Part shown: positions 3,994 to 54,115 of the stretch, piece by piece
How positions within the stretch are numbered: position 1 is the first letter of the stretch
How the letters are laid out: the number at the start of each line of letters is the position of its first letter
NCBI RefSeq assembly: GCF_017875235.1
Contig: NZ_JAGGMI010000002.1
Span: 496,001-560,000, forward strand
Length of the DNA stretch: 64,000 nt
Source: Asticcacaulis solisilvae
GTDB taxonomy: Bacteria > Pseudomonadota > Alphaproteobacteria > Caulobacterales > Caulobacteraceae
Reading direction: 5' to 3'
Notes under the pieces: model-generated
Told to the model about the DNA's origin: nothing
Databases searched by the model: none
What the model saw: only the letters and a program-made list of their open reading frames with translations
Translations under genes and position numbers: made by a program

Positions 3994-4050
3994 TCTTTTG
4001 TCGCGATATTTTGCCAAAAACCGCTACACACTTTTTGGCATATCGCTCTA
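3994..4050 (-). repeat. Interspersed hairpin repeat, copy 1
   Basis: Read on the minus strand: TAGAGCGATAT, an 8-bp inner stem GCCAAAAA/TTTTTGGC around GTGTGTAGCGG, then AAA and ATATCGCGACAAAAG. The outer arms GCGATAT/ATATCGC also pair. Its first three bases are the pcm stop codon. Five other copies occur in this window with different but still complementary inner stems. Confidence 0.85.
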
Positions 4051-4698
4051 GGACTCCTTGGCGACACCGGCGATCAGCGGCACGAACCGCACCTCGCCCA
4101 GATCCTCGATATCGTAATCGCCTTCAGCCGACTTGGTGTAGCGCAGCAGGCGCTGCGTCGAGCCCTTGCCCTGTGGCCCGACCATGATGCCCTTGGGCTT
4201 GAGTTGTCCCAGCAGTTCAGCCGGCGCTTCCGGCAGGGCGGCGGTGACCAGAATGCGGTCGAACGGCGCCTGTTCCGGCCAGCCGTTCCAGCCGTCGCCG
4301 AAACGATAGATGATGTTCTCCAGCATCAGCCGCTTGTGGCGGATTTCGGCCTCCAGCATCAGCGAACGGTAGCGTTCGATCGTGTAGACGTAGCGCGCCA
4401 GCCGCGCCAGGATCGCCGTCTGGTAACCACTGCCGGTGCCGATTTCGAGGACGCGGTGGCGGCCTTCGATCTTCAGCGCCTGGGTCATCAACCCGACGAT
4501 ATAGGGCTGGGAGATCGTCTGGCCGCAATTGATCGGAATGGCGGAATCTTCCCACGACCGGTCTAGAAACAGTTCAGGCACAAACAGGTCGCGCGGCGTA
4601 TATTCCAGCGCGTGCAGAAGCTTCCTGTCCTCGATGCCCTGCTCTTTCAGGCCGCGCAGCAGGCGATGCAGCCGGCTTTCTTCCTTCGGCTCGCTCAT
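4048..4698 (-). CDS. pcm: Protein-L-isoaspartate O-methyltransferase
   Basis: 216 residues. The enzyme uses SAM to methylate L-isoaspartyl residues so that damaged proteins can be repaired. Visible are the substrate-site segment AIPINCGQTISQPYIVGLM, the SAM motif VLEIGTGSGYQTAILA and FDRILVTAALPEAP. It overlaps surE by 4 nt, so the two are translated from one message, a pairing also found in enterobacteria. The stop codon TAG is formed by the edge of an interspersed hairpin repeat, which may have altered the last residues (AGVAKES). Confidence 0.96.
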   Translation of the reverse strand: MSEPKEESRLHRLLRGLKEQGIEDRKLLHALEYTPRDLFVPELFLDRSWEDSAIPINCGQTISQPYIVGLMTQALKIEGRHRVLEIGTGSGYQTAILARLARYVYTIERYRSLMLEAEIRHKRLMLENIIYRFGDGWNGWPEQAPFDRILVTAALPEAPAELLGQLKPKGIMVGPQGKGSTQRLLRYTKSAEGDYDIEDLGEVRFVPLIAGVAKES

Positions 4699-5492
4699 TG
4701 CGCCGCCTCGACGTCGATCTGTTTGGGGACGGTGCCGCCGATGGTCCTGCGCAGGCGATGCAGAGTATCATTGTGCGTCAGGTCGAGGTGCAGCGGCGTA
4801 ATCGAAATCTTCCGGTCGGCCACGGCCTTGAGATCCGTGCCATCGACCAGGGTCTGCTCCAGGTTATGGAAGTCCAGCCAGTAATAGGTCCGGCCGCGCG
4901 GGTCGGTACGCTTGACGGCGTGCATTTCATGCAGGTCGCGGAAACCCTGGCGGGTGATTTCCACACCCGTCACATCGTCTGCGCTACAGTCCGGGAAGTT
5001 GACGTTCATCACAACGTCGGATGGCCAGCCTTGCTTCAGCAGCGCGCTGACGATCGGCGCGCCGTGGACGCAGGCCGCCTGCCATTGCGCTTCGATATCG
5101 ATAGCGAAGTCCAGGCACTGCGACAGGGCGATCGACGGAATACCCAGCGTCATGCCCTGCAGGGCGCCGGCGACCGTACCCGACAGGGTCACATCCTGCG
5201 CCAGGTTGAATCCACGATTGATTCCCGACAGGACGAGATCCGGTGGCTCGGGCAGGATGTCGTTGACAGCGATCTGCACGCAGTCGGTGGGCGTTCCCGA
5301 CACGGCAAAGCGCTTTTCCCCCAGGCGTTTGACGCGTAGCGGTTCGTGCAGGGTCACGCCCCGGCCTTTGCCCGACTGCTCGATAACCGGCGCGCACACC
5401 CAGACGTCGTCGGTCAGGGTTTTTGCGATGTCATAGAGCACAGCCAGCCCGTAAGCCTCTATGCCGTCATCATTGGTGAGCAGAATACGCAT
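4695..5492 (-). CDS. surE: 5'/3'-nucleotidase (survival protein) SurE
   Basis: 265 residues. SurE is a divalent-metal nucleoside-monophosphate phosphatase. It starts MRILLTNDDG with the paired metal aspartates, continues with APVIEQSGKGRG, VSGTPTDCVQIA and VLSGINRGFNLAQDVTLSGTVAGAL, all family signatures. The start is ATG 5492 with AAGG upstream; an in-frame extension to 5543 is rejected because the conserved family N-terminus begins here. It is followed by pcm with a 4-nt overlap and preceded by a long palindromic repeat. Confidence 0.96.
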   Translation of the reverse strand: MRILLTNDDGIEAYGLAVLYDIAKTLTDDVWVCAPVIEQSGKGRGVTLHEPLRVKRLGEKRFAVSGTPTDCVQIAVNDILPEPPDLVLSGINRGFNLAQDVTLSGTVAGALQGMTLGIPSIALSQCLDFAIDIEAQWQAACVHGAPIVSALLKQGWPSDVVMNVNFPDCSADDVTGVEITRQGFRDLHEMHAVKRTDPRGRTYYWLDFHNLEQTLVDGTDLKAVADRKISITPLHLDLTHNDTLHRLRRTIGGTVPKQIDVEAAQ

Positions 5493-5581
5493 GAGAACCT
5501 TCGGTGAACACCGCAGCGTTTTACGACCATTCGCGGGGGGCAATCAAGCACGGAAAAGTCGCAGCGGGTGAAAAGTTAAGA

Positions 5582-5717
5582 GGCCCCACCACCGCTACGC
5601 TTCGCTTGCGGTCCCCCTCCCCATGCTTCGCACAGGGAGGAGTGATCGCGCTCTGTAACTCCTCCCTGTGCGAAGCATGGGGAGGGGGACCATCTGCGCA
5701 GCAGATGGTGGTGGGGT
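5582..5717. repeat. Nested palindromic intergenic element A
   Basis: Perfect 33-bp inverted arms (5610-5642 and 5659-5691) enclose a 16-bp loop. They are flanked by a 7-bp-stem hairpin CATCTGC-GCA-GCAGATG (5690-5706) and outer arms CCCCACCAC (5584-5592) and GTGGTGGGG (5708-5716). It lies between the serS stop and the surE start. The architecture matches the element at 56956-57081 although the sequence differs. It may fold as a giant cruciform or RNA hairpin. Confidence 0.85.
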
Positions 5718-5724
5718 TTCTTAC

Positions 5725-7008
5725 TTACCCGATATGCGTCAGGCCGCCCATATAGGACTGAAGCACCGCCGGCACCGCGATCCGGCCGCCCTCGTCCTGA
5801 TAGTTTTCCATGATCGCCACCAGGGTCCGGCCGACCGCCAGGCCCGAGCCATTCAGCGTATGGACAAAGCGCGTGCCCTTTTCGCCGGCCTTGCGCGTGC
5901 GGGCGTCCATGCGGCGCGCCTGGAAATCCCCGCAGTTCGAGCACGACGAAATCTCACGATAGGTGTTCTGCGACGGTAGCCACACTTCGAGATCGTAGGT
6001 CTTGCGCGCGCCAAAGCCCATGTCACCCGTGCACAGCAGCATGGTGCGGAAGGAGAGATCGAGCTTTTTCAGGATCGCCTCGGCGCACTGCGTCATGCGC
6101 TCGTGCTCGTCTGCCGACTGTTCCGGCGTGGTGATCGACACCAGTTCGACCTTCTGGAACTGGTGCTGGCGGATCATACCCTTGGTGTCGCGGCCGGCCG
6201 ATCCGGCCTCAGCGCGGAAACAGTTGGTCAGGGCGGTCAGGCGCAGCGGCAGCTCTTCCTCGGCCGTGATGGCTTCGCGGACCAGATTGGTCAGCGTCAC
6301 TTCGGCGGTCGGGATCAGGTAGCGGTCGTCCGTCGTCTTGAAGAGGTCCTCTTCGAATTTCGGCAACTGGCCGGTGCCGAACAGGGCGTCGCCACGCACC
6401 AGAACCGGCGGATTAACTTCCATGTAGCCGTGCTCGGTCGTCTGCGTGTCGAGCATCCATTGGCCGATGGCCCGCTCCAGGCGCGCCAGTTGACCTTTCA
6501 GCACGACAAAGCGCGAGCCGGACATCTTCGCCGCGGCTTCAAAGTCCATAAAGCCAAGAGCCTCGCCCAGATCGGCATGATCCTTCGGCGTAAAGCTCAG
6601 AACGTTCGGCGCGCCGTGCTTGCGGACCTCTACATTACCGTGTTCATCGGCGCCTTGCGGCACGTCTTCGAACGGCACATTTGGCAGGGCAGCAAGCGCG
6701 TCACGCAGGGCTTCGTCCTTTAGGCGTTCCTGCTCTTGCGCTGTCGCAATTGCGCCTTTCAGCGCCTCGACCTCGGCCATCAGTTCCGAAGCCTTCGCTT
6801 CGTCCTTCTGCGCCTTGGCCTTGCCGATTTCGCCCGACAGCTTCTTCAGTTGCGCCTGATTGGTCTCGAACGCCGTCTTGGCGGCCCGCAGGTCCTTGTC
6901 GAGGGCAATCAGTCCATCGACATCCGACTGCGCGCTGTCCCGGCCGCGCGACGACCAGCCGCGCACATAGGCTTCAGGATTATCGCGCAATGCCTTGATA
7001 TCGTGCAT
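5725..7008 (-). CDS. serS: Seryl-tRNA synthetase
   Basis: 427 residues. It charges tRNA-Ser and tRNA-Sec with serine. The N-terminal coiled-coil arm (about 27-110, Lys/Glu/Ala-rich) binds the tRNA long arm. The class II core shows motif 2 ([20 protein letters not shown]) and motif 3 ([19 protein letters not shown]), with [16 protein letters not shown] between. ATG 7008 gives the standard [14 protein letters not shown] start; the in-frame upstream ATGs add non-conserved residues. Confidence 0.97.
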
Positions 7009-7095
7009 GGTTCTGCCCTCGATTTGCATAAACATGACTCATCGGCAAACCGGTGAGCCTGAGGCAGAGGGCATAAGCGCCGTCGCGTTACGGGT

Positions 7096-7130
7096 CAAGG
7101 GTGCTGAGCACCCCAACTTGGGCACCCTTG
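7096..7130. other. Intergenic hairpin between tatC and serS
   Basis: A 9-bp inverted repeat CAAGGGTGC/GCACCCTTG contains a competing inner hairpin GGTGC-TGA-GCACC. No T-tract follows on the minus strand, so it is not a classical terminator. It could be an RNA processing or stability element in the tat-serS transcript. Confidence 0.4.
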
Positions 7131-7135
7131 CCTTC

Positions 7136-8047
7136 CTAAGCGGTCTTTGGACGACGCAACTCGATGATCCATACGCAGAGGATCGATATTTCGTAGAGCA
7201 GCCAGATCGGCACCGACAGCATGACCTGTGAGATCGGATCGGGCGGCGTCACAACGGCGGCCACTACGACGATCGCCAGGATGGCATAGCGGCGCAGTTG
7301 CCCCAACTGCTTGGCTGTGACGATGCCCGCCAGGCCCAGAAGCGTAATGATGATCGGGAGCTGGAAACAGCAGCCAAAGGCCAGCATCAGGGTGGTGATC
7401 AGGGACAGGTAGTCCGACACCTTGAACATGGCGGTGACATTGACGCCCGGCGCCGCGATCTGCTGGCTCAGCGAGAACCACAGCACCATCGGCAGGATCA
7501 GGAAATAGACCAGGGCCATGCCGATGATGAACAGCACGGGCGCGGCGAACAGGAAGGGCAGAAACGCATTGCGTTCCTTGCGGTACAGGCCCGGCGCGAC
7601 AAAGCGGTACAGTTGGAAGGCCAGGACCGGGAAGCTCAGGATAATGCCGCCGAACATGGCCATCTTCAGCTTGGTGAAGAAGAACTCCAGCGGCGCCGTG
7701 AAAATCAGCGACACATCCTTGTTGATCACGACCTCCTTGAGGCCGAGCAGGACGTACATCAGGTCGAACGGATTGCCGTGATGGCCTGAAATCTTCTGCT
7801 CCTCCAGCATCGCATTGGCGACCTTGAACGGATGCAGCAGGAATTCGTAGATATTGGTGGCAAAAGCGAAACAAATGATACAGGCGGCGACAAAGGCGAT
7901 GACCATGACCATCAGCCGGCCACGCAGTTCGACCAGATGCTCCATCAATGGCGCGCGCGACGCCTCGATCTCGGCCTGGTCCTGCTCTTCCTTGGTCACA
8001 AGGGCGCGCTTAGACTTGTCTTCAATGACTTGCGGCAGGTCGCTCAT
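7136..8047 (-). CDS. tatC: Twin-arginine translocase subunit TatC
   Basis: 303 residues, six membrane helices. TatC is the receptor for twin-arginine signal peptides of folded exported proteins. The N-terminal cytoplasmic motif APLMEHLVELRGRL, the periplasmic loop FTAPLEFFFTKLKMA and FQLYRFVAPGLYRKER are diagnostic. The N-terminal extension before the first helix (about 35 residues) and the enlarged first periplasmic loop are typical of alphaproteobacteria. Start overlaps the tatB stop by 4 nt, so tatABC is one operon. Two proteins in this window (19320-19949 and 43162-44307) carry Tat-like signals. Confidence 0.97.
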   Translation of the reverse strand: MSDLPQVIEDKSKRALVTKEEQDQAEIEASRAPLMEHLVELRGRLMVMVIAFVAACIICFAFATNIYEFLLHPFKVANAMLEEQKISGHHGNPFDLMYVLLGLKEVVINKDVSLIFTAPLEFFFTKLKMAMFGGIILSFPVLAFQLYRFVAPGLYRKERNAFLPFLFAAPVLFIIGMALVYFLILPMVLWFSLSQQIAAPGVNVTAMFKVSDYLSLITTLMLAFGCCFQLPIIITLLGLAGIVTAKQLGQLRRYAILAIVVVAAVVTPPDPISQVMLSVPIWLLYEISILCVWIIELRRPKTA

Positions 8048-8610
8048 GACGCCTTGCTCTTACGGGTGCGTTTGGGGGCAGCGGCGTCAGACGCGGCTGT
8101 CTTGGTCGCGCGGGGCTTGGCGGCGACCTTTACCGGCGCCACAGCGGCTGCCTGGGGTGGCGCCTTGGCACGGGTCTTCTTGGGCGCGGGCTTATCCAGC
8201 GAAACGGCAGGCATCTCTTCGACCGGCACGCTCACAGGCACTTCCGGTTCCGAAGTATTGAAATCGTCGGCGTCGGGCGACGCAACGTCCTCAGAACCGG
8301 AATAGAAGTGCGTGGTCGGCGTCAGGCTTTCATTGACGTCGTACTGGACCTTTTCAATCTCGGTGCGGACGTCGTCGAGCACGGGCACGCGATTGGTGCG
8401 CAGCGCCTCGACCTCCTTGCGGAGGTCGTCGAGCTCGCTCTGACGCGCCATGTCTTCAAACGATGAGCGGAAATCGTCGGCCATGCCGCGCATCTTGCCG
8501 ACAAAGCGGCCGATCTGGCGCAGCAGTTTGGGCAGGTCCTTGGGACCCACCACCAGCAGAGCGATGACAGCAATGACGACAATTTCGCTGCCGCCGATAC
8601 CGGGCAACAT
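8044..8610 (-). CDS. tatB: Twin-arginine translocase subunit TatB
   Basis: 188 residues. An N-terminal membrane helix (MLPGIGGSEIVVIAVIALLVVGPKDLP) with the E and GP hinge of TatB is followed by an amphipathic helix (KLLRQIGRFVGKMRGMADDF) and a long charged, Ala/Lys-rich tail. It partners TatC in the substrate receptor complex. The tail ends in basic residues (KRTRKSKAS). It is encoded between tatA (64-nt gap) and tatC (4-nt overlap). Confidence 0.94.
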   Translation of the reverse strand: MLPGIGGSEIVVIAVIALLVVGPKDLPKLLRQIGRFVGKMRGMADDFRSSFEDMARQSELDDLRKEVEALRTNRVPVLDDVRTEIEKVQYDVNESLTPTTHFYSGSEDVASPDADDFNTSEPEVPVSVPVEEMPAVSLDKPAPKKTRAKAPPQAAAVAPVKVAAKPRATKTAASDAAAPKRTRKSKAS

Positions 8611-8673
8611 CCGATTCAGGCTTTCTTCAACGGTTTCAACAGGTCAGGCCGGATTGTTCACCCGGCCACGGGG

Positions 8674-30084: not shown

Positions 30085-30121
30085 TAAAAAAGGCCCGGAC
30101 TTGCCTCCGGGCCTTTATTTT
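30085..30121. terminator. Bidirectional terminator between lepA and the convergent lipoprotein gene
   Basis: An 11-bp perfect stem AAAGGCCCGGA/TCCGGGCCTTT with a 6-nt loop, preceded by A-run and followed by TATTTT. It can stop transcription from both sides. Confidence 0.9.
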
Positions 30122-30563
30122 ACCAGCTGTTGTCCTTTTTCGCACCGAAGCGGAGCTCCTTGGCGCGTTCCTTGTCGAGAATCTCGATCGATTTCACGAA
30201 GCAAGGAATGGCGACCGTATTGATCTGTCCCTTGATCTCGGCGTCGATCGGATGACATATCTGGCTTGAGCCCCGGAAGGTAAAGCCAACCGGGTCAAAG
30301 TCGCTTCCCAGGCACGACGCGTTCATATGAAGCAGAGCGGCCGTGCCGCTGCGATCCTCAACGAAGAGCGTCTTGCCGTCCAGGACACGCGTCGTATCCA
30401 GCGGCGCCGACAAACAGCGCCTCGGCGACGCCTTCTCGCCGGCATCGGCGGTATCTCCGGGCACGGTACTGCATGCCGCGACGATCAGACCGGCGGCGGA
30501 GACCGCCAGTCCGACAGCAATGAGGCGGCCGCGTACGGCCGCTTTTGCGTTCAGTTTCCCCAT
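30120..30563 (-). CDS. Four-cysteine secreted paralogue 1 (lipoprotein, 147 aa)
   Basis: Lipobox region GLIVAACSTVPG. The mature part carries the pattern shared by three consecutive genes: RCLS, NASCLG, SSQICHPIDAEI and IPCFVKSI, i.e. four spaced cysteines plus an IC..DA core. From memory it resembles DUF6491. ATG 30563 has GGAGG at -9; the frame further upstream runs through two hairpin repeats and is not coding. Probably a periplasmic protein with two disulfides. Confidence 0.75.
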   Translation of the reverse strand: MGKLNAKAAVRGRLIAVGLAVSAAGLIVAACSTVPGDTADAGEKASPRRCLSAPLDTTRVLDGKTLFVEDRSGTAALLHMNASCLGSDFDPVGFTFRGSSQICHPIDAEIKGQINTVAIPCFVKSIEILDKERAKELRFGAKKDNSW

Positions 30564-30583
30564 TTTCGAGCCTCCTGACAGGC

Positions 30584-30642
30584 AGAGCGATATGCCGAAA
30601 AGTGTGAAGCGGCTTTCGGCTAAATATCGCGACAAAACAAAA
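30584..30642 (+). repeat. Interspersed hairpin repeat, copy 2
   Basis: AGAGCGATAT, inner stem GCCGAAA/TTTCGGC around AGTGTGAAGCGGC, TAA, ATATCGCGACAAAACAAAA. Relative to the consensus GGCGAAAA stem, both strands have changed in step. Confidence 0.85.
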
Positions 30643-30644
30643 CT

Positions 30645-30700
30645 TAGCGATATGGCCTGAAAGTGTCGGCGGTTCCGGCCGATATCGCGACAAAGCAAAA
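30645..30700 (+). repeat. Interspersed hairpin repeat, copy 3 (tandem with copy 2)
   Basis: TAGCGATAT, diverged inner stem GGCCTGAA/TTCCGGCC (one mismatch) around the loop, G, ATATCGCGACAAAGCAAAA. It starts 3 nt after copy 2 in the same orientation. Confidence 0.8.
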
Positions 30701-30738
30701 ACCTTAACCGGCGTCTCGGGAAAAACGCCGGCGACACT

Positions 30739-31197
30739 TTAATCCTTTTCCAGCAGCGCGTCGGCCTCTTCGCGGCTTACGGGCTTGATGCCGTTGATCA
30801 GGCATTTGACCGGCATTTCGCCCGAGTGCGAATAGAGGATCTTGGCGTCGTGCGGGCGGCAGATCTCGCTCGAGCCATAAAGTTCGAAACCGAACTGCGA
30901 CATGTTGGTCATGCTGCGGCACGGACCGCCGATGTCGAGCAGATAGCCATTGCCGAAGCCATCGCGGACCAGCAGCGTCTTTTCATCGACGACATGAAAG
31001 CCGCCGGCATTGCGGGCATCCAGGCATTTCGGCGGGGTACGCTTGCTTTCAGTGACCTGGCTCTGCGCCGTGTTGCCCCAGTTATTATCCTGGGCATTGG
31101 CGGTGACGGCGACGGAGGCCGCCGCGACGATGACGCCGCCGGTAACGACGCTGGCCGCCACGACAGCGGCCTTCTTGATGAGATGGTGTAAAGTCAT
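30739..31197 (-). CDS. Four-cysteine secreted paralogue 2 (152 aa)
   Basis: A signal peptide (about 1-35, ending VTANAQ) precedes the same layout: KCLDARNAGGF, VVDEKTLLVRDGFGN, GGPCRSM, SSEICRPHDAKI and PVKCLIN. The best-matched block with paralogue 1 is SS(Q/E)IC.P.DA.I. Function unknown; exported and likely disulfide-bonded. Located between paralogues 1 and 3 with 15-nt spacing to paralogue 3, so at least these two are an operon. Confidence 0.75.
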   Translation of the reverse strand: MTLHHLIKKAAVVAASVVTGGVIVAAASVAVTANAQDNNWGNTAQSQVTESKRTPPKCLDARNAGGFHVVDEKTLLVRDGFGNGYLLDIGGPCRSMTNMSQFGFELYGSSEICRPHDAKILYSHSGEMPVKCLINGIKPVSREEADALLEKD

Positions 31198-39332: not shown

Positions 39333-40712
39333 ATGAGCAAGGATGGAAGCGTGGCGAACAAGCCGGGACTGTTTGAACGTCTAAGCTACGGCGCGGGCGA
39401 TTTCGGGTTCAACCTGTACTGGACGACCATATCGGCCTTCCTGCTGATATTTTACACCGACAGTTTCGGGCTGGATCCGCGCGTCGCCGGCACCATGCTG
39501 CTGACGACAAAGCTGCTGGATTCGTTCGTTGATCCGTTGATGGGTGCCATTTCCGACCGGACGAAGACCAAATGGGGCCGCTATCGCCCGTGGCTTCTGT
39601 GGGCGGCCATCCCCATGGCGGTGTCGGCCGTCCTGACCTTCACTACGCCGGATCTCGATTCCACCGCCAAGGTCATTTACGCCTATATCACTTTTGCGAT
39701 CATGATGGCCGTCTATTCGGTCGTCAGCATCCCCTACGGCGCCCTGTCCGGCGTTCTGACCAACGATCCGCAGTCGCGCACCCAGATCAACAGCTTCCGC
39801 TTCGTCTTCGCCTTCGCCGGCGGTACCTTCGTTACCTACTGCACACCGATCCTGGTCAAATGGTTCGCGACGAAGTTCGGCGGCGGTGATGACACGGTCG
39901 GCTGGCAACTGACCATGGCGCTTTACGGGATTCTGGCCTGCCTGTTCTTCTTCAACGTCTTCGCGACGGCGCGTGAGCGTATCACGCCCGTGCAGGAACA
40001 AAAGGTCAGCCCGTGGCGCGACATCGCCGACCTGTCGCAAAACCGCCCGTGGATGGTCCTGTTCGTGCTGTCGCTGGTCATCATGGTGACGATTTCGACC
40101 CGCATGGGCGCCGCGCCCTATTATATGAAATACTTCATCGGCGAACCCGACAAGGTGAAGGAGTTCCTGACCATCTACGGCTTCGCCCTGGCCGGCGGCG
40201 CCCTCCTCACCCCCGTCATGACCCGCTTCATCGACAAGAAGTCGCTGCTGATGATCCTGATGGGCCTGGTCGGTGTCTTTTCAATCGCCTTCTACTTCAT
40301 CCCGAAGGATCAGCTGTGGCTGGCCTATGTGATGCAGGTGGTGATCGGCCTGTGTTTGGGTCCCAAGTCGCCTTTGACCTTTTCCATGTACGCCGACACG
40401 GCCGACTATACGGAATACAAGACCAACCGCCGCGCCACCGCCATGACCTTCTCCGCGGCGATCTTCGCCCAGAAACTAGGCGGGGCGCTGGCTTCGGCCG
40501 TTATTGGCTGGACCTTGGCCAGCCTCGGCTACGAGGCCAACAAGGTCCAGGGCGACGCCTCCCAGGAAGGCATATTGCTGCTGATGAGCGTCGTACCTGG
40601 CGTCCTGGCCCTTTTGTCTGCCGTCATCATGGCCGCCTACGACCTCAACGATAAACGCCTCGCCGAAGTGCAGGCCGAACTGACTTCCCGCAAAGCCCCA
40701 AAAGACGACTGA
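39333..40712 (+). CDS. GPH-family glycoside:cation symporter (MFS)
   Basis: About 460 residues with twelve helices. GPH motifs: ERLSYGAGDFGFNLYWTTIS, LLDSFVDPLMGAISDRTKTKWGRYRPW and PYGALSGVLTN. Members take up disaccharides, pentosides and hexuronides with H+ or Na+. The start is uncertain: ATG 39321, ATG 39333 or GTG 39351 (AAGGA upstream). The stop overlaps the GH94 start (TGATG), so it imports that enzyme's substrate, probably a beta-glucobiose or related aldobionate. Confidence 0.9.
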   Translation: MSKDGSVANKPGLFERLSYGAGDFGFNLYWTTISAFLLIFYTDSFGLDPRVAGTMLLTTKLLDSFVDPLMGAISDRTKTKWGRYRPWLLWAAIPMAVSAVLTFTTPDLDSTAKVIYAYITFAIMMAVYSVVSIPYGALSGVLTNDPQSRTQINSFRFVFAFAGGTFVTYCTPILVKWFATKFGGGDDTVGWQLTMALYGILACLFFFNVFATARERITPVQEQKVSPWRDIADLSQNRPWMVLFVLSLVIMVTISTRMGAAPYYMKYFIGEPDKVKEFLTIYGFALAGGALLTPVMTRFIDKKSLLMILMGLVGVFSIAFYFIPKDQLWLAYVMQVVIGLCLGPKSPLTFSMYADTADYTEYKTNRRATAMTFSAAIFAQKLGGALASAVIGWTLASLGYEANKVQGDASQEGILLLMSVVPGVLALLSAVIMAAYDLNDKRLAEVQAELTSRKAPKDD

Positions 40713-43063
40713 TGCCCCTCATAGATTTTGACGCCGACACCTGCCGCCTGCACAGCGCGACAGCCCTTCCGCTTGCCGCCGGTTACCTGTGGAACCCGCG
40801 CATGATGATCCACATGACGGCCCGTGGCTTTGCCACCGCCCAGTTCATGCAGCCCGAACCGGCCAAATACGCCCGCGCCCAGATCATGGAAGCCAAGCAC
40901 TTCATGCTGCCGGAACAGGGCACCTATGCCCACCATCCGGGTCGTTTTTTCTACATCAAGAACCGTAACAATAGCGGTATCTTTTCAGTGCCTTACGAGC
41001 CTGTGCGTAAGCCTGTTGATAAGTTTGAATTCCGCCTCACCCCGACGGATATTTCGTGGGAAATTCAGCAGGATAATCTGTGGATAGAGGTTATCCTCAC
41101 CCTGCCGGTCGATGAGGCGTGTGAGCTATGGGAGGTGCGCCTGCACAATGCCGGCGACGCGCCACAGAGTATCAGCCTTTATCCCGCCTTCCCGCTTGGC
41201 CTGATGAGTTGGATGAACCAGTCGGCGGACTTCCACGCCGGCCTGAACAGCATTGTCGCGGATTGCGTCACTCCGTACCAGAAGGTCGCCGACTACTTCA
41301 AAAACAAGGACCTGAAGGACAAGGTCTTTCTGCTCAGTGAACAGACGCCGGTGGCCTTTGAGACGCGCCAGGCGCGTTTCGAAGGCGAAGGCGGCCTGCA
41401 CAATCCGGACGGCCTGCAAGGCGCGCGCCTGGCAGGCGGCGTGGCGCGCTATGAGAACCCAATCTGCGCCATGCAGTTCGACCACGACCTGGCACCCGGC
41501 GAGACGACGACGCACCGCTTCCTGTTCGGTCCGGCCTTCGATGAGCCGGAAATTGCGCGCCTGAAATCGCGCTTCCTGTCGGCCGATGGGTTTAATCAGG
41601 CCCGCCAGGACTACGCGCAATACATGGCACGGGGACACGGATCAATCAATGTTGATTTCAGCGACAAACACCTCACCACTTTTGTCAATGCGTGGATGCC
41701 GCGCCAGGTCTATTACCATGGCGACACCAATCGCCTCAGCACCGATCCGCAGACGCGCAACTTCCTTCAGGACGCCATGGGCAGCGTCTACGTCCAGCCG
41801 CAAACCGCACGCGCCGTTCTTCTCAAAGCCTTGTCACAACAGGAAGAGAGCGGCGCCATGCCCGACGGCATCACGCTGTATGAAGGCGCCGAACTGAAAT
41901 ATATCAACCAGGTTCCGCACACGGATCACGCGGTCTGGCTGGCGCTTTTTCTGGAATCCTACCTGTCGGAAACCGACGACTACGCCCTACTCGACGTGCC
42001 GGTTCTCAACACGCACACGAACGAAACGCTCAGCGTCCGTGAGCGCGTGTCGAAGGCAAATCAATGGTTGATCAAATCAGTTGATCATCGCAATCTCAAC
42101 TTCATCGAACAGGGCGACTGGAACGACCCGATGAACATGGTCGGCTGGAAAGGCCGCGGTGTTTCGGGCTGGCTGAGCATGGCGACCGCCTACTCGCTGC
42201 GTCTGTGGGCCGGCATCCTGATGGCTGACGCCCGCGACGGTTCCGAGTTCGCCACTGCCGCCCAGCGCTTCAATGCCGCCGTTAACACCCACCTGTGGGA
42301 CGGCGACTGGTACGGTCGCGGCATCACCGATGATGATGTCGTGTTCGGCATAAAAAAGGACGTCGAGGGCCGTATCTATCTCAACGCCCAAAGCTGGGCC
42401 CTTTTGTCGGGCGCGGCCGACGCCAGCAAGGCGCCCCTGATGCTCAAGGCCATCGAGGAACAACTGGAAACGCCCTACGGCGTCGAAATGATCGGCCCAG
42501 CTTACACGCACATGCGCGAGGATGTGGGCCGCCTGACGCAGAAATTTCCAGGTGTGGCGGAAAACGGCTCGGTCTATAACCACGCCGCCGCATTCTACAT
42601 CCACAGCCTCTATGAGATCGGCCAGGCCGACAAGGCGTTTGAGCTGCTCCGCCGCATGCTAACCGGCCCCGACGAGGAAGACCTGCTGCGCCGCGGCCAG
42701 TTGCCCATCTTCCTGCCCAACTATTATCGTGGCGCGCACAGGCAGTTCCCAGACGCCTCAGGACGCTCCTCGCACCTGTTCAACACAGGTACTGCCGCGT
42801 GGATCTATCGCAGCCTGATCGAGGGCCTGCTGGGCCTCAAGGGCTGCCGTGAGGGCCTCTGTATCAACCCGCAACTGCCGTCACATTGGAACGAGGCAAA
42901 AGCCACCCGCTGGTTCCGTGGCGCGGAGTTCCGTGTTCACATCCAGCGCCAATCAACGATTGAATCCGTTCGGGTGACCTGCAATGAAAAGCCCCTGAGC
43001 GACAACGTCGTCAGGGGCATAAGTAGCGGTTCTGTTTATAATATTTCCGTTTTGGTCCCTTAG
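40712..43063 (+). CDS. GH94-family phosphorylase (cellobiose/cellobionate-type)
   Basis: 783 residues. GH94 enzymes split beta-glucosides with phosphate, releasing alpha-glucose 1-phosphate. The catalytic acid is in FIEQGDWNDPMNMVGW (about residue 465); ENGSVYNHAAAFYIHSLYEI, YYRGAHRQFPDASGRSSHLF and the N-terminal beta-sandwich all fit. No signal peptide, so cytoplasmic. Length matches cellobionic-acid phosphorylase or cellobiose phosphorylase; which cannot be told from this alone. Translationally coupled to the symporter. Confidence 0.9.
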   Translation: MPLIDFDADTCRLHSATALPLAAGYLWNPRMMIHMTARGFATAQFMQPEPAKYARAQIMEAKHFMLPEQGTYAHHPGRFFYIKNRNNSGIFSVPYEPVRKPVDKFEFRLTPTDISWEIQQDNLWIEVILTLPVDEACELWEVRLHNAGDAPQSISLYPAFPLGLMSWMNQSADFHAGLNSIVADCVTPYQKVADYFKNKDLKDKVFLLSEQTPVAFETRQARFEGEGGLHNPDGLQGARLAGGVARYENPICAMQFDHDLAPGETTTHRFLFGPAFDEPEIARLKSRFLSADGFNQARQDYAQYMARGHGSINVDFSDKHLTTFVNAWMPRQVYYHGDTNRLSTDPQTRNFLQDAMGSVYVQPQTARAVLLKALSQQEESGAMPDGITLYEGAELKYINQVPHTDHAVWLALFLESYLSETDDYALLDVPVLNTHTNETLSVRERVSKANQWLIKSVDHRNLNFIEQGDWNDPMNMVGWKGRGVSGWLSMATAYSLRLWAGILMADARDGSEFATAAQRFNAAVNTHLWDGDWYGRGITDDDVVFGIKKDVEGRIYLNAQSWALLSGAADASKAPLMLKAIEEQLETPYGVEMIGPAYTHMREDVGRLTQKFPGVAENGSVYNHAAAFYIHSLYEIGQADKAFELLRRMLTGPDEEDLLRRGQLPIFLPNYYRGAHRQFPDASGRSSHLFNTGTAAWIYRSLIEGLLGLKGCREGLCINPQLPSHWNEAKATRWFRGAEFRVHIQRQSTIESVRVTCNEKPLSDNVVRGISSGSVYNISVLVP

Positions 43064-43109
43064 ATCGGTATGATGTTAAGTGGAAACATCATGCCGATCT
43101 AAGTTTTTG
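43060..43109 (+). terminator. Terminator of the GPH-GH94 operon, containing the stop codon
   Basis: TTAGATCGGTATGATGTT pairs over 18 bp (one G-T) with AACATCATGCCGATCTAA, followed by GTTTTT. The GH94 stop TAG lies inside the first arm. The T-tract runs into an interspersed hairpin repeat. Confidence 0.9.
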
Positions 43110-43164
43110 TTTTGTCGCGATATTTAAGGCGAAAACCGCTTACACTTTTCGCCATATCGCTCTA
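43104..43164 (-). repeat. Interspersed hairpin repeat, copy 4
   Basis: On the minus strand TAGAGCGATAT, stem GGCGAAAA/TTTTCGCC around GTGTAAGCGG, TTAA, ATATCGCGACAAAACAAAAA. Its TAG is the stop codon of the lactonase gene. Confidence 0.88.
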
Positions 43165-44307
43165 GGCGACGGGCCCCAGGAAGACCGGTGCGGCCACAGT
43201 GAACTTGGCATTGTGGGCGCGCAGGGTGCCGTTGGTATATTGCGCCATGACCGTCACATCGTTGCTCTTCTGGTGGGCGACGACGAGGCGGTCGAAGCCC
43301 GGAATGATATAGAAGAAGCGCGGCCAGTCACCGCCGGTCGGGATGATCTGCAACAGCGCCAGGCGGCCGGTCGTATCCAGGCCGAAGACCGCGATCGAGT
43401 TATGGCCACGGTTCGAAACGTACAGGATATTGCCCAGGTCGTTCATGGCCATGTGGCCGGCGAAGCTGGCGCCGGTGAAGTCCGCTGGCAGGGTTTTGAT
43501 GTACTGCACGTCCTCGAACGTGCCGTCGCCTTTCGGGCGCAGGGTAATCAGGGCGTTTTCCAGTTCGCCCAGAATGTGGGCGACCTGACCCGACGGGTGC
43601 AGGTTCAGGTGGCGCGGACCGAAGCCCGGCTCGCACTTGTAGGCGACGAACTTTTCACCGACGGCGCCGGTGGCGGCGTCGAAGGTGTAGCCCAGGACCT
43701 CATCCGTGCCCAGATCGACGCTGTAGATGTATTTCTGATCGACCGAGAACTTGACCCAGTGGGCGTGCGGGCCCTGCTGTCGATCGGTATTGGGGCCGGA
43801 ACCCGAATTCTGCTTGACGATCGCGGGTTCGAGCGGCAGGCCGCTCTTCGGATCCAGCTTGTAGACGGCGATATTGCCCGAATTGTAGTTGGCGACCGCC
43901 AGATACGATTCCGTGGCATCCAGTGAGATATAGCAGGGTCCACTGCCCTGGCTGGACACTTCGCCCTTCTTGGTCCACTTGGAGCCGTTGGTAGACACTT
44001 GATAGACGCCGATCAGGCCGTTTTCCTGTTCGTTGACGACGTAATGACGCTTCAGCTTCGGGCTATAGACACCGTAAGAGGCGTTCGGCACGGTCGGGTC
44101 CGGCTTTTTGCCTTCGGTCCATTTGTCATAGGCGGCCGAATAGGACAGCGTGGTGACGCCCACGCCGCCTCCCGACGCGTAAGAGCCTACATAGTAAACA
44201 AGGTCCCCAATCGCGGCGTTGGCCAGGGCCGGCGCAAAGCCAGCAGCAGCGACTGAACCCGCGAGAAAGAGACGGCGGTCAACTCCGCGCGACGAGTTCT
44301 TAGACAT
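43162..44307 (-). CDS. Tat-exported lactonase (6-phosphogluconolactonase-like beta-propeller)
   Basis: 381 residues. The N-terminus SRGVDRRLFLAGSVAAAGFA is a twin-arginine signal. The rest is a seven-bladed propeller of the PF10282 lactonase type: GPCYISLDATESYLAVANYN, QGPHAHWVKFSVDQKYIYSV, GPRHLNLHPSG and GGDWPRFFYIIPG. Exported members hydrolyse sugar lactones in the periplasm. Facing the GPH-GH94 operon, cellobionolactone is an attractive substrate (inference). The stop codon is supplied by a hairpin repeat. Confidence 0.88.
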   Translation of the reverse strand: MSKNSSRGVDRRLFLAGSVAAAGFAPALANAAIGDLVYYVGSYASGGGVGVTTLSYSAAYDKWTEGKKPDPTVPNASYGVYSPKLKRHYVVNEQENGLIGVYQVSTNGSKWTKKGEVSSQGSGPCYISLDATESYLAVANYNSGNIAVYKLDPKSGLPLEPAIVKQNSGSGPNTDRQQGPHAHWVKFSVDQKYIYSVDLGTDEVLGYTFDAATGAVGEKFVAYKCEPGFGPRHLNLHPSGQVAHILGELENALITLRPKGDGTFEDVQYIKTLPADFTGASFAGHMAMNDLGNILYVSNRGHNSIAVFGLDTTGRLALLQIIPTGGDWPRFFYIIPGFDRLVVAHQKSNDVTVMAQYTNGTLRAHNAKFTVAAPVFLGPVA

Positions 44308-48127: not shown

Positions 48128-48376
48128 ATGGCTGACCACCACGATCATCACAACGACTATGTCCATGGTGAAATGGACATCTCGCAGCACAAGCACAGCT
48201 ATGAACTGTTCGCTGACCTGACCAAGTGGGGCAGCCTGCACCTGGCCGTCGTTCTGGTCTTCCTGGTCGTCCTGACCTGCATCCCCGGTGCCGGCTGGAT
48301 TCCCGCCATCATCTCGGGCGCCGTCGTCGGCGTGCTGGGCTTCATCCTGCTGAAGAAAAAGCCGGACAGCCACTAA
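48128..48376 (+). CDS. aa3-type cytochrome c oxidase subunit IV-like protein
   Basis: 82 residues. His-rich N-terminus (ADHHDHHNDYVHGEMDISQHK), the YELFADLTKWGSLHLAV pattern and two membrane helices fit the small bacterial aa3-oxidase subunit IV family (PF07835). It often precedes the transhydrogenase genes in alphaproteobacteria, as here. ATG 48128 is chosen over an upstream GTG. The stop TAA lies directly against a hairpin repeat. Confidence 0.82.
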   Translation: MADHHDHHNDYVHGEMDISQHKHSYELFADLTKWGSLHLAVVLVFLVVLTCIPGAGWIPAIISGAVVGVLGFILLKKKPDSH

Positions 48377-48454
48377 AGCGATATGGCGAAACGAAGTTCG
48401 ACGCATCCAAAAGCGTGAAGCGGTTTTCGCCTTAAATATTGCGACAACGAAAAA
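48377..48454 (+). repeat. Interspersed hairpin repeat, copy 5 (with loop insertion)
   Basis: AGCGATAT, stem GGCGAAA/TTTTCGCC, TTAA, ATATTGCGACAACGAAAAA. The loop is about 18 nt longer than in other copies. It follows the stop codon immediately. Confidence 0.8.
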
Positions 48455-48792
48455 GTCCAGGCGCGCTCAGGCGCAGCATCTCACCCCATCCCAAAGGGCT
48501 TCAGCGTGACGCGCGAATCATCGTGCTCGCGCTGAACACGATTCTGACCGGCCGTCCTTACACGAACTTTTGCGATCCCGTTTATTGGCCGCGTCACCGG
48601 TGAAAGCCTTGTTATGCCTGGCATTTTGGCGCCCTGAATGTCCTGACATCTGGGAAAAAATGGTAAAGTCACTTCGTACCTTTACTTGCCCGCAAATTCC
48701 TCATAACACACCTTAGATAATAAACGGCGACACCAATGTCGTTGCGGATGCAATTAGACACCCGCCAAAGCCATAGTCAGAGGGATAACAAC
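48455..48792. other. Intergenic region between subunit IV gene and pntAA
   Basis: Contains two GANTC sites (GAATC near 48516, GATTC near 48541), the CcrM methylation motif. The last 90 bp are AT-richer and probably hold the pntAA promoter. A 63-codon minus-strand frame here has no support. Confidence 0.5.
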
Positions 48793-49938: not shown

Positions 49939-49948
49939 GGAGAGTACA

Positions 49949-50275
49949 ATGGAAGTCATCTATCACCTGGCCATCTTCGTCCTGGCCATCTTCGTCGGCT
50001 ACTACGTCGTGTGGAGCGTTACGCCCGCCCTGCATACGCCGCTGATGGCCGTCACCAACGCCATTTCCTCGGTGATCATTGTCGGCGCGCTGATCGCCGC
50101 CGCTGCCAGCGTCACCGAAATGAACAGCGGAATGGGCGCGTGGGTCGCCAAGGGCGCTGGCGGTCTCGCCTCGGCGCTGGCCGCCGTCAACATCTTCGGT
50201 GGCTTCATGGTCACGCGCCGGATGCTGGCCATGTACAAGAAAAAAGAAAAGAAGACTGAAGGGGGCAAGCACTAA
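49949..50275 (+). CDS. pntAB: NAD(P) transhydrogenase subunit alpha part 2 (PntAB)
   Basis: 108 residues. The membrane part of the alpha subunit, with three or four helices: IYHLAIFVLAIFVGYYVVWS, TNAISSVIIVGALIAAA and the C-terminal FGGFMVTRRMLAMYKKKEKK. The split of alpha into two genes is the Rhodospirillum-type layout. ATG 49949 has AGGGAGAG upstream; its stop overlaps the pntB start by 1 nt (TAATG). Confidence 0.95.
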   Translation: MEVIYHLAIFVLAIFVGYYVVWSVTPALHTPLMAVTNAISSVIIVGALIAAAASVTEMNSGMGAWVAKGAGGLASALAAVNIFGGFMVTRRMLAMYKKKEKKTEGGKH

Positions 50276-51696
50276 TGGAACAGCTAACTACCCTCGCCTA
50301 TCTCGTTTCGGGCGTCCTGTTCATTCTTGCCCTGCGCGGCCTGTCGTCGCCTGAGACCTCGCGTCAAGGCAATCTCTACGGCATGGTCGGCATGGCTATC
50401 GCCGTCGGCGTGACCATCTTCCACCTGATGAGTGCCGGCTCGCTGGATGCAACGACCATCGTCATCATCCTGGCCGGCATCGCGGTTGGCGGCATCGCGG
50501 GCACGGTCATCGCGCAGAAGGTCTCCATGACCTCGATGCCGCAACTGGTCGCGGCCTTCCACAGCCTGGTCGGCATGGCCGCGTGCATGGTCGCCATCGG
50601 CGCCCTTTATGCCCCACGCGCCTCCGGCATCGACAATGGCCTGGACGGCATTCACACCCAGTCGATCATAGAACTGGCGCTGGGTTGCGCCATCGGCGCC
50701 ATCACCTTTACCGGCTCGGTCATCGCCTTCGCCAAGCTCAACGGCAATATGTCAGGTGCGCCGATTATCCTGCCGGCGCGCCACCTGCTCAACATCGCGC
50801 TGGGCGTCGCTATCATCGGCCTGATCGTCTATATGGTCGTCAATCACGGCACGCCGGACACGCAGTGGGCGTTCTGGGGCATCTTCGGCCTGTCGCTGGT
50901 GCTCGGCATCACCCTGATCATCCCGATCGGCGGCGCCGACATGCCGGTCGTCGTGTCGATGCTCAACTCCTATTCGGGCTGGGCCGCGGCGGCGCTCGGC
51001 TTTACGCTGGAAAACATCGCCCTGATCATCACCGGCGCTCTGGTCGGCTCCTCGGGCGCGATCCTCAGCTACATCATGTGTAAGGGCATGAACCGCAGCT
51101 TCGTCAGCGTCATCCTCGGCGGTTTCGGTGGCGACGCGAGCGCGACCACTGCAGGTGGCAAGGTCGAAACCCGCCCGGTCAAGCAGGGCTCGGCCGACGA
51201 CGCTGCCTTCATCATGAAGAACGCCTCCAAGGTCATCATCGTCCCGGGCTACGGCATGGCCGTCGCCCAGGCCCAGCATGCGCTCCGCGAAATGGCCGAC
51301 AAGCTGAAGGAGGAAGGCGTCGAGGTGAAGTACGCCATCCATCCGGTTGCTGGCCGTATGCCCGGACACATGAACGTCCTGCTGGCCGAAGCCAATGTGC
51401 CCTACGACGAAGTTTTTGAGCTGGAAGACATCAACTCGGAATTCGCCACGGCCGATGTCGCCTTCGTCATCGGCGCCAATGACGTCACCAACCCGGCCGC
51501 CAAGACCGACCCGACCTCGGCCATCTACGGCATGCCGATCCTCGACGTCGAAAAGGCCCAGACCGTTTTGTTCGTCAAGCGCGGCATGGCGGCGGGCTAT
51601 GCCGGCGTCGAAAACGAGCTCTTCTTCCGCGACAACACCATGATGCTGTTCGCCGATGCCAAGAAAATGGTCGAAGGCATCGTCAAGGGGCTGTAA
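50275..51696 (+). CDS. pntB: NAD(P) transhydrogenase subunit beta (PntB)
   Basis: 473 residues. About eight helices (dII) followed by the NADP(H)-binding dIII domain (about 290-473). Motifs: VAFHSLVGMAACMVAIGALY, KVIIVPGYGMAVAQAQHALR, HPVAGRMPGHMNVLLAEANV and FVIGANDVTNPAAKTDPTSA. The three pnt genes are tightly linked and co-translated. Confidence 0.97.
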   Translation: MEQLTTLAYLVSGVLFILALRGLSSPETSRQGNLYGMVGMAIAVGVTIFHLMSAGSLDATTIVIILAGIAVGGIAGTVIAQKVSMTSMPQLVAAFHSLVGMAACMVAIGALYAPRASGIDNGLDGIHTQSIIELALGCAIGAITFTGSVIAFAKLNGNMSGAPIILPARHLLNIALGVAIIGLIVYMVVNHGTPDTQWAFWGIFGLSLVLGITLIIPIGGADMPVVVSMLNSYSGWAAAALGFTLENIALIITGALVGSSGAILSYIMCKGMNRSFVSVILGGFGGDASATTAGGKVETRPVKQGSADDAAFIMKNASKVIIVPGYGMAVAQAQHALREMADKLKEEGVEVKYAIHPVAGRMPGHMNVLLAEANVPYDEVFELEDINSEFATADVAFVIGANDVTNPAAKTDPTSAIYGMPILDVEKAQTVLFVKRGMAAGYAGVENELFFRDNTMMLFADAKKMVEGIVKGL

Positions 51697-51706
51697 GCTC
51701 GAGGCC

Positions 51707-52126
51707 ATGTCCGAGCCCAAGACCAGACCCACCGATGTCGATCCGCGCGTCTTTGTCGAGACACAGGCGCCGGAACGGCATCGGGCGGACTCCCTGGTCC
51801 TTATCGACATGCTGGCCGACGTTACCGGTGAGCCGCCCGTCATGTGGGGCGACGCCATTGTCGGCTTTGGCCAGTACACCTACGTCAATTCCAGCAAAAA
51901 GCCGCAGACCTGGCCGCTGATCGGCTTTTCGCCGCGCAAGGGCGATATCACCCTCTACATCATGCCGGGTTTCGACGGCCTGGCAGAGCCTCTGTCACGG
52001 CTGGGCAAGCACACAACCGCCCGTTCCTGTCTTTATATTAAACGGCTGGCGGATATCGACCGGGACGTGCTGCGCGACATTCTGGCCTATGGCTACGCGA
52101 CCACGAAGGCGCGCCACCCCAACTGA
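51707..52126 (+). CDS. DUF1801-domain protein
   Basis: 139 residues of the YdhG/DUF1801 type: DMLADVTGEPPVMWGDAIVG, FGQYTYVNSSKKP, PLIGFSPRKGDITLYIMPGF and SCLYIKRLADIDRDVLRDIL. Function unknown. It starts 10 nt after the pntB stop with GAGG at -7, so it may be co-transcribed. Confidence 0.86.
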   Translation: MSEPKTRPTDVDPRVFVETQAPERHRADSLVLIDMLADVTGEPPVMWGDAIVGFGQYTYVNSSKKPQTWPLIGFSPRKGDITLYIMPGFDGLAEPLSRLGKHTTARSCLYIKRLADIDRDVLRDILAYGYATTKARHPN

Positions 52127-52218
52127 ACTTATGCCCGGCTTATGCATTCATGCGTCATTCAGCCTTCATTTGGCACCATTGCGCCCATATGCTAGGCAAG
52201 TGTCCTGTTTCGGGGGTG

Positions 52219-52944
52219 ATGAAGTCGATGAGTATGAAGAAGATTGTCCTGTCCGTTGCGGCCCTGTCCGTGCTGGCCACCGGCACGCCGGCCATGGCGC
52301 AGCTCAAAGTGCCCCAGATTTCAACCGAAGGCGGCATGTCGACTTCGACGGCCGCGGCGTCCGACGCCTTTCCAGGCCTGAAGGGCTTCCTGAGCCTGCC
52401 CGCCGCCGACCGCTCTCAGATCAGCGTCTATTACGTCGCCCGCATCAAGCATGCCGACAAGTCGCAGGTGAAGGTCACTCTTATCGACGGCAACCGCCAA
52501 ATTCCGCTGACCATACAGGGCGATGGCCGGATCACGCCTTTGCCGACACTTGCGCAGCTCAACAGCGGCGCCAAGGTCACCATCAGCGGGCCGCAATCGG
52601 GCTCGTATTCCATGAAGATCAAGGTGCATTCGCCCCAGCCGAATGGCCGAACCTATGATGCTGCCGGACTGGCCCTGGGTGTCCGACAGGGCAATAACGC
52701 CATAGGTAGGATCGCCGGCGCCATGTCCTTCATGGTCAAGAAACTTGACCGCGTCTATTTTGTCGGCGGCGGTTCAGGCACGGTCGAGGTCAATGGCCAG
52801 CAGAAGAGCCTGCCGCGCACTGACGGTGCGGGCGAGTATCCAGCCGGCACGCCCTACTTCGTGCCTTCGCAATTTCCGGGCGCCACGCGAATCACCCTGA
52901 GCCATGCCGCGTCGACTGCGCTGTTCGACAACCCGCCGAAATAA
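52219..52944 (+). CDS. Hypothetical secreted protein (241 aa)
   Basis: Signal peptide SMKKIVLSVAALSVLATG ending PAMAQ. The mature protein has a Gly/Ser-rich beta-strand composition with VKVTLIDGNRQIPLTI and GDGRITPLPTLAQLNSGAKV. No catalytic motif and no family recognised. Start uncertain between ATGs 52219, 52228 and 52234. Monocistronic. Confidence 0.75.
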   Translation: MKSMSMKKIVLSVAALSVLATGTPAMAQLKVPQISTEGGMSTSTAAASDAFPGLKGFLSLPAADRSQISVYYVARIKHADKSQVKVTLIDGNRQIPLTIQGDGRITPLPTLAQLNSGAKVTISGPQSGSYSMKIKVHSPQPNGRTYDAAGLALGVRQGNNAIGRIAGAMSFMVKKLDRVYFVGGGSGTVEVNGQQKSLPRTDGAGEYPAGTPYFVPSQFPGATRITLSHAASTALFDNPPK

Positions 52945-53001
52945 AATGTCGCGCTAAAGCACGCGGTTCAGATCAGGCTGGACCGCGTGTCCGGACGCTG
53001 A

Positions 53002-53541
53002 TTATTCTGAAATAGGATCTTCGACAGCGGCGGCGACGCTGGCCGGTTCGGCTAATGGCGCGTCAGCCTTGTACGACTTCTGCACGTTGACATACATACC
53101 CAGCCAGCCGCCGCCCCAGGCGCACAGGCCGACAATCACCGGACAGACCAGGAAGATCAGCAGAGTATTGGGCTGGACGAACAGGTCGATGAGATAGAAG
53201 GCGGCCAGCAGCACGCCGGCGATCCAGCCCGGGAACTGGCCGATCTTGGCCCAGCGCACGGCGCAGTAGGCGCCGGCCGTGGTGCCAAAGGCCCATGAGA
53301 CAGCGATCACCCAGAAGGACCCGATCGGATCAGTTTTCAGCAGTTCGGACTGGGCGCTGAAGTCGATGTCAGGATAGCGCGGTGCGATCGCATAGAAGAC
53401 AGCCTTGGCGATCGTGTACGTCACCATGCCGATCAGAAGGCCCAGAAGTACGGCCAGAAGCACGACGAGCAGCTGACGCGTCTTCCCGTCGTTCCATTCG
53501 CCAAGCCAATCCTGGAAACGGCTCATGAAGGTCGATTGCAT
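53002..53541 (-). CDS. Hypothetical membrane protein (179 aa)
   Basis: Four predicted helices (about 24-48, 76-94, 105-120, 125-148) in a tight bundle with a cytoplasmic N-terminus (MSRFQDWLGEWNDGKTRQ) and an acidic C-terminal tail. Motifs such as WAFGTTAGAYCAVRWAKIGQ are not linked to a known function by me. ATG 53541 or 53526. Alone on the minus strand. Confidence 0.75.
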   Translation of the reverse strand: MQSTFMSRFQDWLGEWNDGKTRQLLVVLLAVLLGLLIGMVTYTIAKAVFYAIAPRYPDIDFSAQSELLKTDPIGSFWVIAVSWAFGTTAGAYCAVRWAKIGQFPGWIAGVLLAAFYLIDLFVQPNTLLIFLVCPVIVGLCAWGGGWLGMYVNVQKSYKADAPLAEPASVAAAVEDPISE

Positions 53542-53642
53542 GGTGGGGCCCTTTTCTTCTTATGTCCCGATCTTACCGGGGTGTCCCGCACACCCGGCCC
53601 GCTAGCCCCATTATTAACATAATCTAAACGGCTGAAAAGCGT

Positions 53643-54041
53643 TTATCGGTTAACGGGGCGGGGGCGGCCGGCCTCGTCGATGGCGACGAAGGTGAAGCTG
53701 GCTTCGGTGACGCGCGTCTTTTCCAGGCTTTCGCGCGGGCGGCGATAGGCGTCGACCTGCAGCTTCATCGAGGTCCGGCCCGTCGAGATCAGGCGGGCAT
53801 AGACGCTGACCTCGTCGCCGACGTGGACGGGCGTCAGAAAGACCATGCCGTCGACCGCGATGGTCGCCACCCGGCCGCGCGACATGCGAGAGGCGACATT
53901 GCCGGCCGCCAGGTCCATCATCGACATCAGCCAGCCGCCGAAGATATCCCCCGACGGATTGGTGTCGGCCGGCATGGCGGTCGTCAGCAGGGCCAGGTCG
54001 TTGGGATCGGGCAGGCTCGGGTCGGTCATGCGGGTCGCCAA
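53643..54041 (-). CDS. Acyl-CoA thioesterase (YciA-like hot-dog)
   Basis: 132 residues. The hot-dog thioesterase motifs are NPSGDIFGGWLMSMMDLAAG (catalytic Asp region), VDGMVFLTPVHVGDEVSVYA and the RTSMKLQVDAYRRPR strand. It hydrolyses acyl-CoA. TTG 54041 has GGAG 8 nt upstream; the first ATG at 54029 lacks a ribosome site, so TTG is preferred. A hairpin repeat lies just upstream of the start. Confidence 0.9.
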   Translation of the reverse strand: MATRMTDPSLPDPNDLALLTTAMPADTNPSGDIFGGWLMSMMDLAAGNVASRMSRGRVATIAVDGMVFLTPVHVGDEVSVYARLISTGRTSMKLQVDAYRRPRESLEKTRVTEASFTFVAIDEAGRPRPVNR

Positions 54042-54059
54042 CTGGAAGTCTCCGTGCTG

Positions 54060-54115
54060 GAGCGATATGGCGAAAAGTGTGGAGCGGTTTTCGCCTTGAA
54101 TATCGCGATAAAGCT
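54060..54115 (+). repeat. Interspersed hairpin repeat, copy 6
   Basis: AGCGATAT, stem GGCGAAAA/TTTTCGCC around GTGTGGAGCGG, TTGA, ATATCGCGATAAAG. It lies between the divergent end of the thioesterase leader and the rpsU terminator. Confidence 0.87.

Follow-up and report, generated by a model that had tools for sequence, protein, structure and literature searches.

The complete element and its copies

The window analysed here (the whole stretch of 64 kb from the genome of Asticcacaulis solisilvae) carries six copies of an interspersed hairpin repeat that an initial annotation had located from the letters alone. All six are real, each starting within a few bases of the position originally given, and pairing of the arms is present in 6/6, being poorest at 30646-30690 (Table 1). 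The hairpin is, however, not the full repeat unit, which is longer and was missed by that annotation: it is the left arm of a bipartite element of about 106 bp that, as read from the flanks, consists of YTAG, arm 1, an A-rich linker, arm 2 and CTAR. The sole complete match in the window to a model of the whole element, at 43060-43165, reaches from one stop codon to another, that of a GH94 gene on one side and that of a lactonase-type gene on the other, and both stops are formed by the element.

Table 1. Copies of the element, and the stop codons they touch, in window coordinates
Feature	Position	Strand	Basis or context
Arm 1, without arm 2	4001-4047	-	Between TAG stops of two convergent genes (3990-3992, +; 4048-4050, -)
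Arm 1, first of a tandem pair	30586-30632	+	Strict-pattern match and R1 model
Arm 1, second of the tandem pair, weaker inner stem	30646-30690	+	Strict-pattern match and R1 model
Complete bipartite element, YTAG ... CTAR	43060-43165	-	R1, 113.8 bits, covering all 107 model positions; flank reading
Arm 1 of the complete element (the repeat as first described)	43115-43161	-	Strict-pattern match G000:C2:539115-539161
Arm 2, palindrome with TAG...CTA ends, like IS630 ends	43061-43101	-	
TAG stop of the GH94 gene (40712-43063), made by the element's right end	43061-43063	+	
TAG stop of the lactonase-type gene (43162-44163), made by the element's left end	43162-43164	-	
Arm 1, long-loop variant	48377-48444	+	Immediately 3' of the TAA stop at 48374-48376
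Arm 1, then a host terminator-like hairpin in place of arm 2	54061-54108	+	

Arm 1, known by its AGCGATAT hairpin, is composed of an outer stem GCGATAT/ATATCGC, an inner stem and the core AAAAGTG...GCGGTTTT, while the linker, ACAAAACAAAAAC, leads into a second YTAG, after which follow arm 2, a palindrome of about 40 bases, and CTAR. Complete elements are mostly 104-120 bp long and in young copies are bounded by YTAG and CTAR, with both ends precise at 47 places in the fetched A. solisilvae loci (tandem arrays counted more than once). Copies were collected with a strict pattern for arm 1, AGCGATATN{20,50}ATATYGCGA, the same pattern read backwards serving as the control, and complete copies were separated from left-arm-only copies by a palindrome test for arm 2, which is present in 63 of 89 copies from A. 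solisilvae and 19 of 54 from other Asticcacaulis, and missing from the remaining 26 and 35, respectively. The strict list includes five of the six window copies, the exception being the one at 48377, which escapes the pattern through its ATATTGCGA end and longer inner part. The four partial matches of the whole-element model in the window (54057-54159, 68.4 bits; 30582-30689, covering both tandem copies, 60.7 bits; 3960-4051, 57.1 bits; 48373-48471, 31.9 bits) score low because the right arm is missing or is host sequence.

Some variant arrangements were also met. The tandem pair of the window lies between two adjacent minus-strand DUF6491 genes (30120-31197), perhaps a gene duplication. The long-loop variant contains an inner AACGAAGTTCG... 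part, and comparable long loops occur among the listed copies of genomes G011 and G017. Three other loci (L040, L042, L048) hold tandem arrays of arm 1 with a period of 63 bp, single shared YTAG joints and one closing arm 2, and at L004, L037 and L055 complete copies sit within apparent host inverted repeats, perhaps terminator loops. At L227 (position 1501, genome G120) a lone hairpin contains the same core; its outer stem, GAGCATGATCC/GGATCATGCTC, is symmetric, and there is no second arm.

Distribution and covariation

The 5.0-Mb genome of A. solisilvae has 117 strict matches (69 forward, 48 reverse) and the reversed control none. An interspersed structured element in more than 100 copies is thus supported. 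The window, with five strict matches in 64 kb, is denser than the genome as a whole. A tighter pattern run over 84,980 named species genomes returned 60 stretches, all from Asticcacaulis (records of the A. solisilvae genome itself may have been left out), and within this genus at least one strict match is found in 13 of 25 genomes, individual matches being listed for some of these genomes only. Chance seems to account for the listed matches of G003 and G006, in which the inner core is lacking, and for that of G042, outside the genus. The core GAAAAGTGNGAANCGGTTTTC is present in 4 of 289 genomes of the class, A. solisilvae included, and at both loci of G175 and two of the four loci seen in G297 the bipartite anatomy is kept with different outer stems. 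Plasmids extend the range: the window element matches 94 plasmid records (Rhizobium, 90; Asticcacaulis, 3; Sinorhizobium, 1), and a Rhizobium copy used as the query matches 510 of 72,556. A scan of viral contigs yielded one contig, whose copy and printed flank are identical to one of the loci already in hand (L038), so that it added nothing.

The initial annotation had proposed a covariance-model search, and the model built here from the whole element (R1, 107 positions) detects it, at E <= 0.001, in 49 of 70 genomes of the family, representing 18 of 22 genera, with the number of candidates scored capped at 55 for each genome. In the class it is detected in 26 of 241 genomes, A. solisilvae included. 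Covariation was scored on an alignment of 31 chosen complete elements (A2; 27 of 36 references and four Rhizobiaceae loci, with the structure taken from one row). Left out of it were long-loop copies (L006, L013, L031, L033), near-duplicates (L002, L028, L056) and L114, L241, L248 and L249, and two further loci (L009, L092) had failed the end search. In A2, 93.1% of 915 cells are paired, 22 of 30 pairs have changed on both sides, and the covariation score of 0.443 compares with 0.152 in shuffles and no more than 0.111 in slid controls. Alignments of 34 family matches and of 26 class matches have 95.5 and 91.9% of cells paired, respectively, and in each of them both partners have changed at 28 of 30 pairs, values that lean towards the structure of the model because the matches were fitted to it.

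Covariation across genera is therefore far above both kinds of control, and the observation that the arms change together while pairing is kept holds well beyond the window. The further argument drawn from it, that the pattern reflects selection for structure and not only recent copying, stands in part, being supported by the changes across genera and weakened within the genome, where stem variants mostly correspond to subfamilies of near-identical copies. With 20 of 23 copies of A. aquaticus unseen at the corresponding sites of strain YBE204 (see below), recent copying accounts for much of the within-genome pattern, and for the same reasons we no longer regard variation within this genome by itself as proof of selection.

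Occupied and empty sites, gene ends and a resident transposase

Copies are present at some sites and absent from the corresponding sites in related species. The tighter pattern returned 23 loci from A. aquaticus, and strain YBE204, whose flanks are about 90% identical, has a copy at the same place in three, both flanks without a copy in 18, and a single flank in two (L111, L114). Over the three shared hairpins together, one position differs. Seven sites of A. solisilvae copies were looked for in 24 relatives, and two of them proved alignable across the junction. The clean case is L061 against G018, with GAGC-TA-AATCC (one TA removed) facing GCGC-TA-AATCC; two further relatives also lack the element and have changed target bases, and G021 retains TTAAATC. 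At this locus the TA belonging to two overlapping convergent stops has been duplicated, and the terminal G and C of the element restore both stops. At L011 one element is nested at a CTAG inside an older copy, a stretch that is uninterrupted in L050. The insertion at L006 is located in an unalignable spacer. Duplication of a TA target was thus met at two sites (L061/G018 and L011/L050), the insertions being at CTAA or CTAG.

Gene ends appear to be frequent neighbors. With genes called by our own simple caller, no copy lies inside a gene (0/89 in A. solisilvae, 0/54 in other Asticcacaulis), and a boundary of the element coincides with the stop of a neighbor in 35/89 and 20/54 copies, versus 16.6 and 15.5% of noncoding YTAR sites. 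This enrichment is suggestive, and not proven, since each copy can score at either of two boundaries whereas the expected rate refers to a single site, and since the left boundary alone is a stop in 16/89 and 12/54 copies, not above the YTAR-site rate. In Mesorhizobium ciceri, too, an arm-1 copy has an annotated stop on either side. When read on the minus strand, arm 2 of the complete A. solisilvae copies has a median folding energy of -19.7 kcal/mol and is followed by a median of nine T in the next 12 bases; in the window a terminator-like site is called at 43059-43103, with the arm-2 hairpin followed by TTTTTGTTTT on the plus strand. The right neighbor has its 3' end facing the element in 52 of the 63 complete A. 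solisilvae copies (p 1.7e-7), and among left-arm copies in 18/26 from A. solisilvae and 21/35 from other Asticcacaulis, neither proportion being significant.

As to the agent of mobility, the A. solisilvae genome has one DDE_3 match, which is an IS630-type element with two overlapping frames and with the ends TAGAGCGGGATGACGTTT and TAGAGCGTGATGACATTA at CTAG. The ends of arm 2 agree with these at as many as 17 of 18 positions, a likeness reached by none of 2000 shuffles for 30 distinct A. solisilvae ends and by 1/2000 for 22 ends from other Asticcacaulis. A related transposase occurs on 792 plasmid records, and in seven of the eight loci fetched from these the ends are TAGAGC or TAGAGTC: TAGAGC at both ends (L284, L287), one of each (L280, L286), or TAGAGTC at both (L282, L283, L285), L281 having different ends. 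The single IS630-type copy of the A. solisilvae genome lies in locus L071 (981-2030); its left TAG is the stop of the upstream frame 153-983, and 1 kb downstream of it there is a decayed complete element (3068-3169).

Named relatives and competing explanations

The name CIR, for Caulobacter CcrM-associated intergenic repeats, reportedly goes back to Chen and Shapiro in 2003. In the accessible part of a 2007 description (PMC2229807), CIR elements are about 110 bp long and consist of two long inverted repeats, that is, two arms and a linker, have in one arm a terminal loop with a GANTC methylation site, carry TA at the ends, lie outside genes, and are of a mobility said to need more study; the mechanism of this mobility is left open in print, as far as the accessible parts of two papers go (PMC2229807, PMC10969869). 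Length, two inverted-repeat arms, linker, TA ends and intergenic location are all shared with the element of A. solisilvae. The copies of the latter differ, by the same partial description, in mostly lacking GANTC, in being far more numerous than that description suggests, and in that many are arm 1 alone. GANTC is found in the arm-2 loop in 2 of 63 complete A. solisilvae copies, in 8 of 19 from other Asticcacaulis, and at 18 of the 30 loci from the family search, each represented by one match. The element is best read as a GANTC-poor, expanded miniature inverted-repeat transposable element (MITE) of the CIR type, and, as the comparison is by description only and all described CIR features fit except GANTC, we file it as a CIR-type variant and not as a proven CIR. 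Because this description, in the part accessible, fits, the statement of the initial annotation that the repeat is not a named element is probably wrong. A search of the window against Rfam 15 at gathering scores found only a tRNA and left the element unmatched. Six core strings, searched as literal text in the literature, gave no match.

The Rhizobium-specific intergenic mosaic elements (RIMEs) are said to have been described by Osteras in 1995 as consisting of two large palindromes. The Rhizobiaceae are the group within which RIMEs are named (PMC2573895, accessible part), and the two-armed form of about 106 bp with the same core is common on plasmids of this group, its outer stems differing from those of the Asticcacaulis form. 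This rhizobial form is probably RIME, by its description and by citing papers. The RUP (repeat unit of pneumococcus) of Streptococcus pneumoniae, again from the accessible part of PMC2229807, is 107 bp long, is present in about 100 copies, has ends like those of a resident IS630 and uses TA targets. By that description it resembles the present element in all four respects, but belongs to Firmicutes and has one inverted repeat over its whole length instead of two arms. Reportedly (Fournier, 1993), IS870 needs a CTAG target and uses CTAG to make a stop codon, and by this description target and stop formation are alike; IS870, however, is autonomous, and the stop that it makes belongs to its own gene, whereas the element restores the stops of host genes.

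We consider it likely that the element is a non-autonomous CIR-type MITE of many Alphaproteobacteria, with the repeat first described as its left arm and an IS630-type transposase as its mover. Such a transposase, with ends such as TAGAGC and with CTAG targets as in IS870, would act on the ends of the element, which would insert at CTAA or CTAG with duplication of TA and contribute the G that follows the left TA and the C that precedes the right one, so that insertion at a TAA or TAG stop would leave the flanking genes with TAG stops. Entered from the right end, arm 2 and the complement of the linker, which is T-rich, resemble an intrinsic terminator, possibly active in vivo, which may render insertion at a gene end harmless or useful. 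Left-arm-only copies would have arisen through deletion of arm 2, a palindrome between short direct repeats. Chances look about even that CIR and RIME belong together in a single superfamily of IS630-dependent MITEs adapted to gene ends, with YTAR entry and TA duplication, both stops restored, a one-way terminator, and arms that covary freely around a conserved arm-1 core.

A number of observations weigh against this explanation. The left end of the element is like the insertion sequence ends only at TAGAGCG, a DDE_3 match is absent in 14 of the 25 Asticcacaulis genomes, and such ends are found at none of the 29 further DDE_3 loci examined. No transposition event was observed; the A. aquaticus and YBE204 differences come from a two-genome comparison in which gain and loss are not polarised, many of the A. 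aquaticus junctions are untidy, with misaligned spacers (e.g., L072, L084, L092, L126), and one (L093) has CA rather than TA on one side. Of the 26 class-wide matches 12 have the YTAG start and 14 the CTAR end, some being partial or without ends. The facing of the right neighbor is not significant in complete copies of other Asticcacaulis (12/19), and the gene caller is a simple one.

The main alternatives explain parts of the same evidence. Hairpins with a four-base foot, intergenic and in many copies, are also what a repetitive extragenic palindromic (REP or REPIN) type of element would present, moved by a REP-associated tyrosine transposase (RAYT, a Y1 transposase) that recognises a hairpin and a foot tetranucleotide, here YTAG for GTAG. 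The check for a RAYT gene suggested by the initial annotation came out empty, PF01797 giving no matches in the A. solisilvae genome while the same search was positive in control genomes including Caulobacter vibrioides, and with a TA duplication and ends like those of double-strand transposons we regard this origin as very improbable. Selection in place of a structural RNA or DNA element (a terminator, mRNA stabiliser or protein-binding cruciform), with mobility incidental, would agree with the strong covariation across genera, the conserved core and A-rich linker, the terminator-like arm 2 with its orientation bias in A. solisilvae, and the near identity of the three hairpins shared by A. aquaticus and YBE204, but the sharing of just these three copies despite such similar flanks, and the frequent lack of arm 2, make it unlikely.

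Matched changes in the arms may also arise without selection for pairing, if during replication the template is switched between the arms of an imperfect palindrome or one arm is converted by the other. Rare, perfectly paired stem types found in single copies (e.g., L118) point in this direction, but the likeness of arm-1 core, linker and arm lengths across genera is left unexplained by such a process, and we hold it to be a doubtful, if slightly better, candidate than selection in place.

If the CIR-type MITE reading is correct, the match to resident IS630 ends, the empty site and the TA duplication together offer a concrete answer to the question of CIR mobility, the IS630 link being the new part, and two separately named repeats, CIR and RIME, may prove to be one family, which R1 makes countable in other genomes. 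The stop-codon pattern would be an instance of a mobile element that can, through its terminal bases, enter gene ends without harm. A different inverted repeat between genes, either ACCTTCCCCGTAAACGGGGAAGG-like or of a GGGGAGG...CCATTGGC-like form, is present at 56994-57101 of the window and in the flanks of L036, L039, L041 and L044; found beside several copies of the element, it is probably a separate repeat family.

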